A DNA stretch of 64,000 nt, taken from Clostridia bacterium (GTDB lineage Bacteria; Bacillota; Clostridia; Christensenellales; Borkfalkiaceae). The notes under the pieces were generated by a model, which was given only the letters and a program-made list of their open reading frames with translations, ran no database searches and was not told the origin of the DNA. Positions 6,089 through 48,172 of the stretch are shown piece by piece. Each line of letters begins with the position of its first letter. Position 1 is the first letter of the stretch. The stretch lies in assembly GCA_017626305.1 (NCBI GenBank), contig JAGAIW010000138.1, positions 62,001-126,000 of the forward strand, written 5' to 3'. Made by a program: the position numbers and the translations under genes.

Positions 6089-6871
6089 TTAATCGGGCGG
6101 ATTTTCGATTTTTTTGACGACGACCGCCTGTATAGGCAGATATTCGTCCGTACGCAGCAGCTTTCGGCTGATCAAACGCTCCCCTTTGTAGCGTTCAAGA
6201 TACGCTTGGCTTTTGAGCCCGTTTTTGGGCGCGCGGAGTATTTCTTCCTTTTCTCCTTCCTTAACGACGGGGGGCGGCGGCGCAATTTCCGCAAGCGCTT
6301 GGGAAACGATTTCCAGCCTATCCACCTTGATTTCCCCGTAAAAACATACGCGGATATAGCCGTCGCCCACTTGGGCGCGAAGACGAACGGGCGAGTCGTG
6401 GGTATTAAAAAGACACAAATCGCTCTGCGACGAAACCATGGCGTCGCGCGAAGGCGGTACGTATCCCACCCGAAGGGAATGGGCGTGGAATTCGGTGATT
6501 TCCAGTCCTGCCTTGATAGCGGCGTTATACAGCGTCGTGCTCACCTGACAAACGCCGCCGCCTACCCCCAAAACGTACTCTCCCCCGACGATAATTTTCG
6601 CTTGACGAAAGCCCGCGTCCGCCGTTCGGCGTCCGACGGTGCGGTTAAAGGAGAATTCTCCGTACGGTTGAATGGTTACGCCGTCGATAAGCTCGGCTGC
6701 GATCGCTATGTTTTCACAGCGGTTTTTATCTTCCGTTTGGTAATAGGTGGTGTAGGAAGAAATCCGCGGCCATTCAGGGGCTTGCGCCCTAGCGGATATG
6801 CCGTTTGGATAGAAAAAAACGACGAGCGAAAGAACCGTCGAACAAATAAAAATAAGCAAGCGTTTTAACAT
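6089..6871 (-). CDS. VanW-family protein with signal peptide
   Basis: A 260-residue exported protein. The N-terminus MLKRLLIFICSTVLSLVVFF is a signal peptide or membrane anchor (about 1-28). The rest is the VanW domain: FSFNRTVGRRTADAGF, then GGGVCQVSTTLYNAAIKAG with its conserved Cys, then HSLRVGYVPPSRDAMV. VanW proteins occur across Firmicutes and are named after a gene in some vancomycin-resistance clusters. Their biochemical role is unsettled, and this copy is no evidence of resistance because no van genes are near. The ATG at 6871 has AAGGAAC in front; a longer in-frame reading to 7009 runs into the upstream repeat and is rejected. Confidence 0.9.
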   Translation of the reverse strand: MLKRLLIFICSTVLSLVVFFYPNGISARAQAPEWPRISSYTTYYQTEDKNRCENIAIAAELIDGVTIQPYGEFSFNRTVGRRTADAGFRQAKIIVGGEYVLGVGGGVCQVSTTLYNAAIKAGLEITEFHAHSLRVGYVPPSRDAMVSSQSDLCLFNTHDSPVRLRAQVGDGYIRVCFYGEIKVDRLEIVSQALAEIAPPPPVVKEGEKEEILRAPKNGLKSQAYLERYKGERLISRKLLRTDEYLPIQAVVVKKIENPPD

Positions 6872-7267
6872 GGTACGTTCCTTTTTTATGTACGGTAAAC
6901 GCATACATGGGTGGTTGTTTTTAGTATGCGTAACTCCAAAAAAAGTATACGCCCCGTTAGTGGCGTAGCGATAAATCGCTACGCCACAACTATATTTGCC
7001 TAACGGCAAGTGATATGCCTATCGGCGTGATATTTTGCTAACGCAAAGTGATATTTGCACTTGCGTGAAAGTTATGGCAAATATAATATCACTTTGACCA
7101 CAGGTCAAAATATAACGCAAGAGTTATCTTGCATATCACTTTTAGCCATGCTAAAAATATAACTACTTTATCGTGGATAAGAAAAGGCCACTACATTTCG
7201 CTTTTTGCGAAGTATAGTGGACTACACTTTTATCATATATCGATTGCAAGCTACGGGAGCGTAGGTG
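6872..7267. other. Gene-free gap filled by the multi-hairpin repeat
   Basis: No gene is supported. Most of the gap (6960-7235) is copy 1 of the multi-hairpin repeat described separately. The remaining 88 bases before it hold the VanW ribosome binding site and presumably its promoter, which I could not assign with confidence. Confidence 0.7.
6960..7235. repeat. Multi-hairpin dispersed repeat, copy 1
   Basis: A 276-bp element made of about ten consecutive hairpins. The first has 13-base arms GTGGCGTAGCGAT/ATCGCTACGCCAC (6960-6987). Then come TTGCC-TAAC-GGCAA, GCC-TATC-GGC, TTTTGC-TAAC-GCAAA, TTTGACC-ACA-GGTCAAA, GCAAG/CTTGC and TTTTAGC-CAT-GCTAAAA. The last is CCACTA...TTCGC/GCGAA...TAGTGG. 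Linkers are variants of GTGATAT and ATATAAC. A second copy in the same orientation lies at 11757-12040. It has no coding potential. Confidence 0.85.
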
Positions 7268-8485: not shown

Positions 8486-9820
8486 ATGGCAGAAAATTCA
8501 CAGCTTCAAGTCGTTTGGAAACAAATTCGGGAACGGGTGCAAAATATCCTTTCGCCCGCCGTTTATAATACGTTTATCAAGCCGTTAGAGCCTGTGGATA
8601 TTATCGGGCGTAAACTGGTACTCAAAGCCCATTCGGACATGGGCGCGAACGTGCTTGTCAACAAGCACGGCGAAGAACTGCGCGACGCCATTAAAAAGTG
8701 CGAGCTTGGAGTAAGCGATTTCCGTATCGTCGTCGACGGCAGCACGACCTTTACCTTAGACGAAAGCGAAGACGCTTTGGACGCATTTTTGCCGTCCCCT
8801 ATCAATAAAAGCTTTACATTCGATTCGTTCGTCGTAGGTCCAGGGAATAAATTTGTATACGCGGCGGCAAAAGCGGTTGCCGAAGCCCCCGGCGAAACGT
8901 TTAACCCCCTGTTTATCTACGGGGAATCGGGACTTGGGAAAACGCACTTAATGCACGCTATCGCCAACGAGATTGCCAAAAACGCTCCTGAAAAGAAGGT
9001 GCTGTATACCACCTGCGAAAACTTCTTGAACGAGTTTATTTCGTCGATTACGCAAAAGAACGGCGCTAACTTCCGTATGCACTATCGCAACGTAGACGTG
9101 CTTATGATAGACGACGTGCAGTTTTTAAAAGGTCGTATGCAGTTACAGGAAGAGCTTTTCCATACCTTTAACGAGCTGTCGGCGCAAAACAAGCAAATCG
9201 TGCTTACGTCCGACCGTTCGCCTAAGGAAATCGCAACGCTGGAAGATAGACTTCGCACCCGTTTTGAAGGCGGTATGATTGCCGATATCCAACCCCCTTC
9301 CACCGAAACGAAAATCGCCATTTTAAAGAGAAAGGCTTTGGATAGAAAGTGCTCCGTTCCCGACGACGTATTAGAGTTCTTGGCGCAAAATTCAGGACAC
9401 GACGTACGTACGCTGGAAGGTAGATTGACAAAGGTTATTTTCGCCAGCAAGTTGCACGAAGAGCCCATTACCATGACGCTTGCCAAGCTTGCCTTGAACG
9501 AATCGGTGAACGAAGACCAAGAACAGGAAGACGTTACACCCGACAAGATTATCGCGGCGGTATGCTCGTACTTCAAGCAAAAGAAAGAAGACCTTTTGGG
9601 CAAAGGCAAAAAAGCCGACCTTGCCAAAGCAAGACAAATTTGCGCGTATCTTTTATGCGAAATGCTTTCCCTGCCGCTTGTGTCCGTCGGAAAACTGCTT
9701 GGGGGCAGAGATCACACCACCATTATGTACGCAAGAGATAAAATGGAAAAGCTGGAAAAGCTGAACGACCACGTCGCAAAAGAAATCGACGATATCAAAA
9801 ATATCGTATTAAAACAATAA
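8486..9820 (+). CDS. dnaA: Chromosomal replication initiator DnaA
   Basis: AAA+ initiator that binds DnaA boxes and opens the origin. The 444 residues contain domain I (1-80), a short linker, and the AAA+ core with Walker A GESGLGKTH (about 146-154), Walker B VLMIDDVQF (about 205-213) and sensor/arginine-finger region LEDRLRTRFEGG. Domain IV ends with the DnaA signature GGRDHTTIMYARDKM. The start has GTAGGGG upstream. The gene is followed by a hairpin and mnmG, not by dnaN. It runs on the plus strand while most genes in the window run on the minus strand. I found no consensus DnaA-box cluster on either side. Confidence 0.98.
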   Translation: MAENSQLQVVWKQIRERVQNILSPAVYNTFIKPLEPVDIIGRKLVLKAHSDMGANVLVNKHGEELRDAIKKCELGVSDFRIVVDGSTTFTLDESEDALDAFLPSPINKSFTFDSFVVGPGNKFVYAAAKAVAEAPGETFNPLFIYGESGLGKTHLMHAIANEIAKNAPEKKVLYTTCENFLNEFISSITQKNGANFRMHYRNVDVLMIDDVQFLKGRMQLQEELFHTFNELSAQNKQIVLTSDRSPKEIATLEDRLRTRFEGGMIADIQPPSTETKIAILKRKALDRKCSVPDDVLEFLAQNSGHDVRTLEGRLTKVIFASKLHEEPITMTLAKLALNESVNEDQEQEDVTPDKIIAAVCSYFKQKKEDLLGKGKKADLAKARQICAYLLCEMLSLPLVSVGKLLGGRDHTTIMYARDKMEKLEKLNDHVAKEIDDIKNIVLKQ

Positions 9821-9863: not shown

Positions 9864-11738
9864 ATGAACGCAAACGAACATACTTTTTTAGAATACGCCG
9901 CGCAAGCGGTGGTTGTGGGCGCGGGTCACGCAGGCGTAGAAGCCGCCCTTGCTTTGGCGCGCACGGGTATAAACACCGCCCTTTTAACGCTCAATTTAGA
10001 CAGTATTGCTTTTTTGCCCTGCAACCCGTCTATCGGCGGTACGGCAAAAGGGCATTTGGTGCGCGAGATTGACGCGCTCGGCGGAGAAATGGGCATTAAC
10101 GCCGATAAAACGGCGTTGCAAATCCGTATGCTCAACGTCGGCAAGGGCGCGGCGGTACAGTCTTTGCGCGCACAATCGGATAAAAACGCCTATCACCGTG
10201 AAATGAAACGGGTGTTAGAGCATACCAAAAATTTACGGATTATCCAAGCCGAAGCGTCGGAAATCCTTGTGGAAAACGGGAAATGTACGGGCGTGAAAAC
10301 GACGTACGGCGGAATTATCAGCTGTCAAGCGGTTATTTTATGTACGGGCGTTTACTTGAACGGCGAAACGATTACCGGACACGTCGTACAAAAATCCGGC
10401 CCGAACGGGTTTGCTCCTGCCAACCACTTAACGCAAAGCTTAATAGATATCGGGTTTAACGTGCGCCGTTTCAAGACGGGCACGCCCGCGCGTTTAGACG
10501 GGCGGACGGTGGATTTTTCTAAGTGCGAAATTCAAAACGGGGATACGGATATTTATCCGTTTTCGTTCATGCACGACAAACCGCCTGAAAATAAGCTCCC
10601 CTGCTATCTTACGTACACGAATTTGCGCACGCATGAAATTATCATGGAGAATTTAGACCGTTCGCCGTTATACGACGGAACGATACAATCGACTGGCCCG
10701 CGCTATTGCCCGTCGATTGAAACCAAAGTGGTACGCTTTAAAGACAAGGAACGGCATCAAATTTTCCTTGAACCAGAAGGCGCGGATACCTTGGAAATTT
10801 ACGCGCAAGGGCTTTCCACTTCTATGCCCCACGACGTACAACGCGCTATGTACGCGTCGGTAGCGGGCTTGGAAAACGCCGATATCGTGCGCTACGGCTA
10901 CGCCATTGAATACGATTGTATCGATACGCTGGACGTTTTGCCGACGTTGGAATTTAAAAAGGTGGAAGGCGTTTACACCGCAGGACAAATCAACGGTACT
11001 TCGGGCTACGAAGAAGCGGCGGCGCAAGGACTTATGGCGGGTTTGAACGCGTCGTTAAAGCTCCGCGGACTGCCCCCGTTCGTGCTCCGCAGGGACGAAG
11101 CGTATATCGGCGTACTCATTGACGACCTTGTTACCAAAGGCACGGACGAACCGTACCGTATGATGACTTCGCGCGCCGAACACCGCATTTGTTTACGGCA
11201 GGACAACGCCGATTTCCGCTTGACGGAAAAGGGCTACGCCTGCGGTTTGGTTACCCAAGAGCGGTACGAGCGGTATCTTGCGCGCAAGCAAAAATACGAA
11301 GAATTGCTTGCAAAAATGCGCGAGCGTATTCCGCAAAAGCAAGTAACGGAATTTTTGAAAAATTACGGCTATGAACAGCCGAGCGGCGGCGTTTCCTGCG
11401 CCGATATGTTAAAGCGTTCTATCCCCTTAAAGGACATCATGGCGCATTTTGGGTTATACGGCGAATACTCCAAGGACGTTATCGAAACGGCGGAAATCAC
11501 CGTCAAGTACGAAGGGTATTTAAAGCAAGGCTTAGAACAAATTGAAAAGGCGAAACGCTTGGAAGATAAGGCGTTGCCAGCGGATATCGACTACAATCAA
11601 ATTTTAGGCTTGCGCTTGGAAGCGCGCGAAAAGCTAGAACGGGTGCGCCCGTTTAACCTTGGACAGGCTGGACGGATATCGGGGGTCAACCCTGCGGATA
11701 TCTCCGTACTCATGGTATGGCTGTCTACGAGAAAATAA
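9864..11738 (+). CDS. mnmG: tRNA uridine 5-carboxymethylaminomethyl modification enzyme MnmG (GidA)
   Basis: FAD-dependent partner of MnmE that modifies the wobble uridine of several tRNAs. The 624 residues are full length. The N-terminal FAD-binding motif is VVGAGHAGVEAALALARTG (about residues 17-35). The family stretches CNPSIGGTAKGHLVREIDALGG and GYEEAAAQGLMAGLNA are clear, as is the C-terminal SGVNPADISVLMVWL. GGAACG precedes the ATG. It lies 43 bases after dnaA and could share its transcript. mnmE, which usually stands just upstream, and rsmG/parAB, which often follow, are not in this window. Confidence 0.97.
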   Translation: MNANEHTFLEYAAQAVVVGAGHAGVEAALALARTGINTALLTLNLDSIAFLPCNPSIGGTAKGHLVREIDALGGEMGINADKTALQIRMLNVGKGAAVQSLRAQSDKNAYHREMKRVLEHTKNLRIIQAEASEILVENGKCTGVKTTYGGIISCQAVILCTGVYLNGETITGHVVQKSGPNGFAPANHLTQSLIDIGFNVRRFKTGTPARLDGRTVDFSKCEIQNGDTDIYPFSFMHDKPPENKLPCYLTYTNLRTHEIIMENLDRSPLYDGTIQSTGPRYCPSIETKVVRFKDKERHQIFLEPEGADTLEIYAQGLSTSMPHDVQRAMYASVAGLENADIVRYGYAIEYDCIDTLDVLPTLEFKKVEGVYTAGQINGTSGYEEAAAQGLMAGLNASLKLRGLPPFVLRRDEAYIGVLIDDLVTKGTDEPYRMMTSRAEHRICLRQDNADFRLTEKGYACGLVTQERYERYLARKQKYEELLAKMRERIPQKQVTEFLKNYGYEQPSGGVSCADMLKRSIPLKDIMAHFGLYGEYSKDVIETAEITVKYEGYLKQGLEQIEKAKRLEDKALPADIDYNQILGLRLEAREKLERVRPFNLGQAGRISGVNPADISVLMVWLSTRK

Positions 11739-12082: not shown

Positions 12083-12400
12083 TTATTTTTTCTTGCGGAA
12101 AATTTTCATAACTTCCGCCGCTATTTCAAACGGCGAAAATGCATTTCTTGGGATACGCCCGTTGTTGATACAAAACAACGGCGTTTCCTTTTGCGCGTTT
12201 TCCGTTTTTATCGGCGTGGCGTTTTGCGTTTCCCTTTCCGCCATTTGCATAGACGGTTGCTCCGTCGGCGGCAAACCTTCTCCGTTGTTTGTATCCGTTC
12301 GGGCAGATGTTTGTAATTGCGGTTTCTCTGCCCGAACAGATTCGGTATGAGAACTTTTATTCCCTTTTATCGCTACTTGTTTCTTTTCATTTTCTTTCAT
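12083..12400 (-). CDS. Hypothetical low-complexity polar protein
   Basis: I do not recognise this 105-residue protein. It is very polar: the first 80 residues are rich in Lys, Glu, Gln, Thr and Asn and look disordered. The C-terminus carries a short amphipathic stretch, FEIAAEVMKIFRKKK. There is no signal peptide or membrane segment. GGGTG stands about 6 bases before the ATG. Two shorter plus-strand readings overlap it but have no better ribosome binding site. It lies between the multi-hairpin repeat and the 12-bp repeat array, so it may be accessory DNA. It could also be non-coding. Confidence 0.4.
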   Translation of the reverse strand: MKENEKKQVAIKGNKSSHTESVRAEKPQLQTSARTDTNNGEGLPPTEQPSMQMAERETQNATPIKTENAQKETPLFCINNGRIPRNAFSPFEIAAEVMKIFRKKK

Positions 12401-12645
12401 TTTTCACCCGATTATCGTATCATACAAATATAAAGCGCCGCCAAAGTACTCTACTATCCGTTGCATATGTCTATTTACATATACAAAAACACACTCCGCT
12501 AATATAATTTCACGTCTAAACCTGTTGCGCTGCTAGACTTAAAACAACACAAGCCGCTAGCGTATAACTTAAATCCACGGCGCTATCCCATCTGCGCGCA
12601 GAGCACCGTCAAACATATCATCCATATAAATGCGGTGCATACAAT

Positions 12646-12812
12646 ATCGTATAGAATATCATATAGAATGTCATATAGAATGTCATATAGAATGTCATAT
12701 AGATGTCGTATAGAATGTTGTATAGAATGTCGTATAGAATGTCGTATAGAATGTCGTATAGAATGTCGTATAGAATGTCGTATAGAATGTCGTATAGAAT
12801 GTCGTATAGAAT
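12646..12812. repeat. Fourteen 12-bp direct repeats (iteron-like)
   Basis: Fourteen head-to-tail copies of a 12-bp unit with consensus GTCGTATAGAAT. The first five are variants ATCGTATAGAAT, ATCATATAGAAT or GTCATATAGAAT, and the fifth is one base short. The seventh is GTTGTATAGAAT; the sixth and the last seven are exact. Every unit contains TATAGA, nearly always TATAGAA. The last unit runs straight into palindrome 1. The homogeneous right end suggests recent expansion there. Confidence 0.9.
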
Positions 12813-12819
12813 ATTCTAT
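12806..12819. promoter_or_regulatory. Palindrome 1, ATAGAA-TA-TTCTAT
   Basis: Perfect 14-bp palindrome. Its left half is the TATAGAA core of the last 12-bp repeat. It is probably a dimeric protein-binding site. Confidence 0.7.
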
Positions 12820-12863
12820 GTATATACAATAGCATACTCCATAGCATTTGTCAAGCAGTTTTT

Positions 12864-12877
12864 ATAGAATTTTCTAT
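12864..12877. promoter_or_regulatory. Palindrome 2, ATAGAA-TT-TTCTAT
   Basis: Same 6-bp arms as palindrome 1 with a TT centre. Its centre is 58 bp from palindrome 1. Confidence 0.7.
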
Positions 12878-12892
12878 ATTTTTCATTAAAAA

Positions 12893-12906
12893 ATAGAAAT
12901 TTCTAT
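12893..12906. promoter_or_regulatory. Palindrome 3, ATAGAA-AT-TTCTAT
   Basis: Perfect 14-bp palindrome with the same arms. Its centre is 29 bp from palindrome 2, exactly half the spacing between palindromes 1 and 2. Confidence 0.7.
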
Positions 12907-12924
12907 ATAATAATGATGTAGGAC

Positions 12925-13170
12925 TTTTGATTTAGGGATAACTTATCCCCTTAGACACGCATATCAATACTGGGGTTGCCTGTATAATAACAAGGCGTTC
13001 CAGCGTTTTTGATTTAGGGGTATTTTATCCACTTAGACACGCATATCAATACTGGGTTTGCCTGTATGACAACAAGGCGTTCCGTCGTTTTTGATTTAGG
13101 GATAACTTATCCCCTTAGACACGCATATCAATACCGGGGTTGCCCGTATGATAACAAGGCGTTCTGGCGT
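12925..13170. repeat. Three tandem 82-bp repeats
   Basis: Copies at 12925-13006, 13007-13088 and 13089-13170, with an exact period of 82. Each starts TTTTGATTTAGGG and contains TTAGACACGCATATCAATAC, GTTGCCYGTATRA and AACAAGGCGTTC. Copies 1 and 3 carry a perfect inverted repeat GGGATAA-C-TTATCCC, which is damaged in copy 2. Copy 2 instead has TTATCCACT, one base from the DnaA box TTATCCACA. Scattered substitutions show that the units are not very recent duplicates. Confidence 0.9.
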
Positions 13171-13321
13171 CATGGAAAAATACCAGCTAGCCTATCGACA
13201 TAAAGCGTTATCGCGAAAATTATCAAATAATGGACTATGGAAAAAGCAATTTGAGCAAATCAAAATAGTTCAAACGTATTGCTTATTACATAAATCAAAC
13301 TGAATAGTATAGGTAGGTTAC

Positions 13322-13537
13322 ATGCAAGTAATGGAATTTAAGGAAATACTTAAATATTTTCTCAAAGAAAACGACTTAACGCAAACGCGTTTTGCCGATA
13401 TTATCGGCGTAAAACAAAGTCAGGTAAGCGAATGGATTAAAGGGAAAGCCAAACCCGGGTATGACATTTTACGGCAAATGTCCAAAGCCTTCTCTATCCC
13501 TGCGGACTTTTGGCTTGGGATTACCGACGAATATTAA
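13322..13537 (+). CDS. Small XRE-family helix-turn-helix regulator
   Basis: A 71-residue protein that is almost entirely one Cro/C1-type helix-turn-helix domain. The turn region is LTQTRFADIIGVKQSQVSEW (about residues 18-37), followed by IKGKAKPGYDILRQMSKAF and ending FWLGITDEY. AGGTAGG stands just before the ATG. It is monocistronic and ends in a strong terminator. Proteins of this type are phage or plasmid repressors, antitoxins or stand-alone regulators; no toxin gene or phage gene is adjacent. The repeats upstream, with palindromic TATAGAA sites, are its most obvious possible targets, but that is inference. Confidence 0.88.
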   Translation: MQVMEFKEILKYFLKENDLTQTRFADIIGVKQSQVSEWIKGKAKPGYDILRQMSKAFSIPADFWLGITDEY

Positions 13538-47874: not shown

Positions 47875-48172
47875 GTGAATAGGTAAAAGGGAATAGGTGC
47901 GGTTTGGTTAAAACGGTTGCGCGCTTTCTTGTTTACCGTTATACTCAATAGAACGTAGCGAAAGGAAGTATCCCTTCATAAGCAAGTCCGCAATCTCTTT
48001 ATTGCCATACCGAGCATTAGCGAAGTATCCCTAATTGCGCAAGTCCGTACTTTCTTCCATGGGATTCTTCACTTCGTTCAGAATGACGGATTGGAAAGAG
48101 TTGGGATTCTTCACTTCGTTCAGAATGACGGATTGGAAAGAGTTGGGATTCTTCACTTCGTTCAGAATGACG
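47875..48172. repeat. Mosaic inverted repeat, copy R4, with a 42-bp triplication
   Basis: Begins with GTGAATAGGTAA and GGAATAGGTGCGG. It continues with two diverged left arms (CTGA or CCGAGC... GAAGTATCCCT) and AAGTCCGTACTTTCTTCC. It then has three tandem 42-bp units (48061, 48103, 48145) that each contain the right arm GGGATTCTTCACTTCG and CAGAATGACG. A reading frame on the minus strand is open only because 42 is divisible by three. It fills much of the 519-base gap between the zinc-ribbon gene and cls. Confidence 0.85.

Follow-up and report, generated by a model that had tools for sequence, protein, structure and literature searches.

Organization of the locus

The window analysed here is a 64,000-nucleotide stretch of the genome of a Clostridia bacterium (draft assembly of 189 contigs, 2.55 Mb, 95% complete). 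It carries dnaA (8486-9820) and, by translation, mnmG (9864-11738), both to the left of a 12-bp tandem array. Between mnmG and the array lies a 105-codon ORF on the minus strand; the array leads into three palindromes (dyads 1 to 3) associated with two divergent promoters, and these are followed by a 404-bp insertion and a gene for a small XRE protein. The resulting gene order is dnaA-mnmG-gene-XRE-PNPase. With its core-gene neighbours, the region is an ordinary chromosomal locus. Further to the left, a Gut-1 RNA (Rfam RF01706) was found at 6987-7059, overlapping the 5' end of a VanW-domain gene (6089-7009, minus strand).

The XRE gene (13322-13537, plus strand) starts 416 bases past the last dyad, as had been stated in an earlier note made from the sequence without database searches. 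Its 71-aa product contains a Cro/CI HTH domain (HTH_3, E=1.2e-12, 48.1 bits with a cut-off of 23). The ORF, the HTH_3 match and the presence of dyads upstream of the gene in relatives all point to a repressor, the presumed binder of the dyads.

Promoters and probable operators

The exact dyad ATAGAA-NN-TTCTAT occurs only three times in the whole 2.55-Mb genome (G000), each time at this locus. Dyad 1 (ATAGAATATTCTAT, 12806-12819) is a putative operator at the start predicted for the divergent promoter, dyad 2 (ATAGAATTTTCTAT, 12864-12877) one between both promoters, and dyad 3 (ATAGAAATTTCTAT, 12893-12906) one before the -10 box of the XRE promoter, which it overlaps by one base; no strand is assigned to the dyads, or to the array, the insertion and the repeats described below. 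These positions bear out the three perfect palindromes of the earlier note, with centres 58 and 29 bp apart. When up to two mismatches are allowed, the window contains 18 matches to the pattern, compared with an expectation of 2.35, and none of 100 shuffles reached that number. A wider regulon is not apparent genome-wide: further exact dyads are absent, and one-mismatch sites are fewer than in a reversed control (16 against 28 per strand).

The XRE promoter has its -10 box, TATAAT, at 12906-12911 on the plus strand. Relatives keep this box next to dyad 3, and among the 56 loci with that layout the distance to the ATG is 6 nt in 39 and 7 nt in seven. The XRE mRNA of these relatives, as read from the sequence, is apparently leaderless, starting at or beside the AUG. 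On the minus strand, the divergent promoter TTGACA-17-TATTGT, with an extended -10, is located at 12826-12854. The corresponding TTGAC-TATAAT element is present in 55 of 79 relatives, compared with 17 of 1302 control stretches.

When the region itself served as query, matches came from 23 of 57 genus genomes, many matches being confined to the XRE gene with dyads 2 and 3, and the promoters of these matches mostly hold two to five exact dyads directly before the gene. To reduce circularity, 80 relatives were gathered from GTDB genomes by XRE protein sequence alone. An exact dyad lies at most 450 bp upstream of the XRE gene in 67 of the 80 and two or more in 45; the spacing between neighbouring dyads is exactly 29 bp in 37 of 59 pairs. 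Counted together, 126 exact dyads lie upstream of XRE genes versus a single one elsewhere in the same loci, and four control palindromes are not found upstream at all. Most of the 13 relatives that have no exact dyad show one- or two-base variants at equivalent places; in one of them (L150) neither an exact dyad nor a near-variant precedes the XRE gene. Moreover, the identical consensus emerges when the start codon and the -10 box, instead of the motif, serve as anchors for the sites. Upstream enrichment, 29-bp spacing and a motif-independent consensus in relatives thus identify the dyads as operators tied to this XRE family. Relatives that carry the XRE gene but no ATAGAA sites were what the earlier note had held against such a link, and the outcome of that comparison favours it. 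Indeed, two-fold symmetric sites in the gene's own promoter, kept across relatives, are the mark of an autoregulated XRE repressor and are found here.

Exchange of the divergent gene

The first ORF downstream of the divergent promoter is the 105-codon ORF (12083-12400, minus strand, by ORF reading). It is an orphan, with no match in Pfam, NCBIfam or PHROG, and represents a possible target of the promoter; it may not be the true one. Of 78 relatives, 71 have a divergent gene, and these 71 genes fall into 44 BLAST families. The proteins encoded are lipoprotein-like, membrane, bacterial PH-domain, YccF, zinc-ribbon or recombinase proteins, and many have no assigned family. A role in defence was considered and rejected: of nine divergent-gene proteins, PADLOC matched only a UvrD-type helicase in L166. 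At L049:6515-9333, three dyads accompany a related XRE gene in the vicinity of a likely tyrosine integrase, as read from the translation.

The same chromosomal position is occupied in several species. The XRE gene is flanked by mnmG in relatives G038, G004, G026, G027 and G030, with PNPase or a glycosyltransferase on the other side where visible, and G017 shows this glycosyltransferase/PNPase side of the locus. The divergent genes found at this one locus encode a 349/372-aa family (two relatives), a 108-aa protein, a DUF4190-like protein, a glycosyltransferase and a B-box-like protein, and in the window the 105-codon orphan. The order dnaA-mnmG-gene-XRE-PNPase recurs in L035, L036, L038, L041, L047 and L050, where the facing gene varies and the XRE gene and its operators are constant. 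Such differing divergent genes at one locus indicate that the regulator and its operators stayed and that the partner gene was replaced. The earlier note considered an array of this type unexpected near dnaA-mnmG in a normal chromosome; this holds for the 12-bp array alone, but not for the XRE gene and the dyads, which form the same module there in relatives. The locus is of interest in part because the regulator has held its position as the divergent target was exchanged between species. One tentative but conceivable reading is that the XRE gene and its bidirectional operators constitute a fixed regulatory dock, whose docked gene is repeatedly exchanged and whose shut-off is tuned by the array in the present species.

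The insertion upstream of the XRE gene

In relatives, the region search joins query position 358 directly to position 763, so that the dyads meet the XRE start codon. The 404 bp located in the window between the XRE promoter and the start codon (12918-13321) are not in relatives, and the leaderless arrangement is broken in this species by the insertion. Since it separates promoter and gene, the promoter described above is perhaps no longer the sole XRE promoter.

A repeat search identified in the insertion three 82-bp direct repeats (12925-13170), each with GGGATAACTTATCCC or a variant of it, which occur nowhere else in this genome or in the other genus genomes. These are followed by a 28-bp stretch (13207-13234, plus strand) that resembles the 3' end of tuf, comprising the last eight codons and the stop. 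It is 93% identical to the genome's own tuf (G000:C167:15508-15535, E=3e-4) and could be an att-site-like copy or a product of chance. Possibly an integrative element left the insertion behind, but an integrase was encountered neither next to it nor among the window proteins scanned.

The 12-bp array

The array extends from 12639 to 12812 (TRF: period 12, 14.6 copies, 95% matches, score 285) with the consensus ATAGAATGTCGT. Thirteen of its units are twelve bases long and one is 11 (12699-12709), and the series runs into dyad 1 at 12806 without a change of register. From the left, the units are ATACAATATCGT, ATAGAATATCAT, three of ATAGAATGTCAT, the 11-base unit, ATAGAATGTTGT and seven of ATAGAATGTCGT, after which dyad 1 begins. 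The fourteen repeats leading into the dyads had been counted in the earlier note with no error of substance, the number being that of a draft genome, in which a 174-bp array, longer than a typical short read, may be represented inexactly. The half-site that was said to recur in every unit is kept as ATAGAA in the full-length units, except in the first, which reads ATACAA. Only this left half-site is good; the facing half, TCGTAT or TCATAT, is off at two of six bases. With a weight matrix built from relatives, most units score about 6 bits, within reach of the window background, versus about 24 bits for the dyads. The unit at 12710 reaches 12.4 bits and is the best non-dyad site in the window, the best elsewhere scoring 11.1.

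The array sits to the left of dyad 1, where the divergent transcript (minus strand) has its 5' leader. No copy was found in 56 other genus genomes or 250 other family genomes, a sample with one genome per species. As a lineage-limited tandem array of near-identical units, it resembles a minisatellite (VNTR). The second unit from the left edge (ATAGAATATCAT) is one base nearer the dyad than most inner units. Tandem duplication starting at the operator would account for the register with dyad 1, for the near-identity of the inner units and for the divergence of those at the edges. The array is therefore best read as a minisatellite that probably grew from dyad 1, with tuning of repression as a possible effect.

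Two other explanations of the array were rejected. The ORFs across it (12635-12832, plus strand; 12695-12847, minus strand) would encode SYRM.. and TTFY.. repeats, which have no support as proteins. A structured RNA is disfavoured, the folding of the array strand being no better than that of shuffled sequences (z +1.07). No Rfam family scored above its gathering threshold in the array or in the 404-bp insertion. In one relative (L176:2780-2833), 4.5 copies of another 12-bp tandem repeat, TAGTTAGTGCTA, lie between the XRE promoter and the XRE gene.

Proposed regulation and comparison with known systems

Very probably, the XRE protein is a lambda-type repressor that controls both its own gene and a divergent target, with the dyads as operators and the array as a minisatellite derived from dyad 1. 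The dyads, their spacing, the promoters, the tie to the XRE gene and the restriction of the array to one species are established by comparison; from these we infer binding, repression, cooperativity and the origin of the array. One XRE dimer would presumably cover each 14-bp dyad. A dimer on dyad 3 would block the -10/-35 spacer of the XRE gene's own promoter and a dimer on dyad 1 the start of the divergent promoter, while dyad 2, in between, would let neighbouring dimers assist each other. The net result would be negative autoregulation together with control of one divergent target. The array could have grown from the left side of dyad 1, within the divergent leader, by slippage or unequal exchange. 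Its units, with one good half-site each, would at most hold the repressor weakly; the array is probably mainly a by-product that could make repression of the divergent gene stronger or better buffered.

The arrangement recalls the CI/Cro systems of lambda and 434, with a small HTH_3 protein and sets of 14-bp two-fold operators at regular spacing between divergent promoters. The repressor mRNA is apparently leaderless, a further likeness to lambda cI, whose transcript was the first to be described as such (PMC3017554). However, the XRE protein, with 71 aa, has no C-terminal oligomerisation or cleavage domain, its gene has settled beside core genes, and its divergent partner varies by species. 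The best NCBIfam match of the protein is to the RstR phage repressors (NF041951, E=1.1e-11), which are small HTH repressors too, but at 44.9 bits against a cut-off of 80 it is not a member of that family. A further difference is that a scan of window proteins turned up no phage genes.

The omega repressor of pSM19035 is a ribbon-helix-helix protein, whereas the XRE protein belongs to HTH_3; in addition, no partition ATPase accompanies the repeats described here and the repeats are unconserved. Common to both systems are a small repressor and short direct repeats overlapping promoters, which in pSM19035 are the heptad iterons of omega/parS (PMC5016525). The array shares with bacterial minisatellites its head-to-tail units, the inner ones most alike and those at the edges diverged, and its occurrence in one species only, but differs from them in that the unit is apparently derived from, and in register with, an operator. 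No paper was found in the literature on tandem-repeat operators of XRE regulators.

Alternative explanations

Short direct repeats beside a promoter, combined with dyads and a nearby small DNA-binding protein, could also be those of an iteron-type replication origin or a partition centromere derived from an integrated plasmid or element; centromeres such as parC consist of tandem repeats upstream of the par operon (PMC5016525). This is very improbable. Among 30 window proteins scanned there is neither a Rep domain, so that the adjacent initiator gene of a plasmid iteron origin is missing, nor ParA, ParM or TubZ, the motor ATPases/GTPases that adjoin centromeres (parC, parS, tubC), nor a relaxase; the neighbours are core chromosomal genes, and relatives have the dyads and the XRE gene without any array. 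From the three layouts proposed in the earlier note, the cooperative operator and the link to the XRE protein are thus retained, and the iteron origin and the centromere are abandoned for want of partner genes and of conservation of the array. A chromosomal oriC, with the array as unwinding or DnaA-assembly region, would agree with the location of dnaA and mnmG 0.9-4 kb to the left, with the AT-richness of the region and with the occurrence of TTATCCACT and TTATCCCC in the 82-bp repeats. In 104 kb, however, the exact DnaA box TTATCCACA is absent and GC skew is negative on both sides with no reversal at the locus, so that no cluster of DnaA boxes at a skew switch was found. Moreover, the 82-bp repeats and the array are missing from the other genomes searched, though an oriC should be conserved, and this origin too is very improbable.

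Two further readings concern the role of the array and the provenance of the module. The array might act as a functional sponge or rheostat, its dozen half-sites in a row catching XRE monomers or dimers and its unit number setting the repression of the divergent gene. The retention of ATAGAA beyond the first unit, the score of the unit at 12710 and the position in the leader of the regulated transcript are in line with this, and there is a precedent in the omega repressor, whose affinity depends on iteron number (PMC5016525). Nevertheless, nearly every unit has a bad half-site opposite the good one, and adjacent units, taken as 14-bp operators, overlap, so that two neighbours cannot both hold dimers. 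The array is also conserved in no relative, and uniform ATAGAA is expected from recent homogenisation as well; such a function is unlikely. Rather doubtful, if somewhat less so, is the view that the XRE gene and its dyads are the relic of a mobile element (the repressor region of a phage or integrative element) and that the insertion, with its tuf-like 28 bp, is the footprint of a second element. The PHROG and RstR-like matches of the XRE protein suggest such an origin, as do the dyads and related XRE gene that G033 carries close to a likely tyrosine integrase (by translation) and the recombinase-like genes that face XRE in L165, L168, L169, L175 and L180, with a Resolvase domain confirmed for L175. 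Against it, the same core-gene locus is occupied in at least five species, which makes XRE a settled chromosomal gene there, and no integrase was seen among the window proteins scanned. A phage origin of this XRE protein was rejected, as it has no relative in 2.9 million viral contigs.

For a group of uncultured gut Clostridia whose regulation is largely uncharted, the preferred reading, an autoregulated repressor with a divergent target, yields a clear recognition sequence, ATAGAA-NN-TTCTAT, together with the regulator that belongs to it. The array would represent a natural case of an operator growing into a minisatellite, and could be used to ask whether arrays of half-sites tune repression.

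Elsewhere in the window, at 48060-48172, there is a perfect 42-bp tandem repeat of 2.7 copies, beginning with TGGGATTCTTCACTTCGTTCAGAATGACGG.
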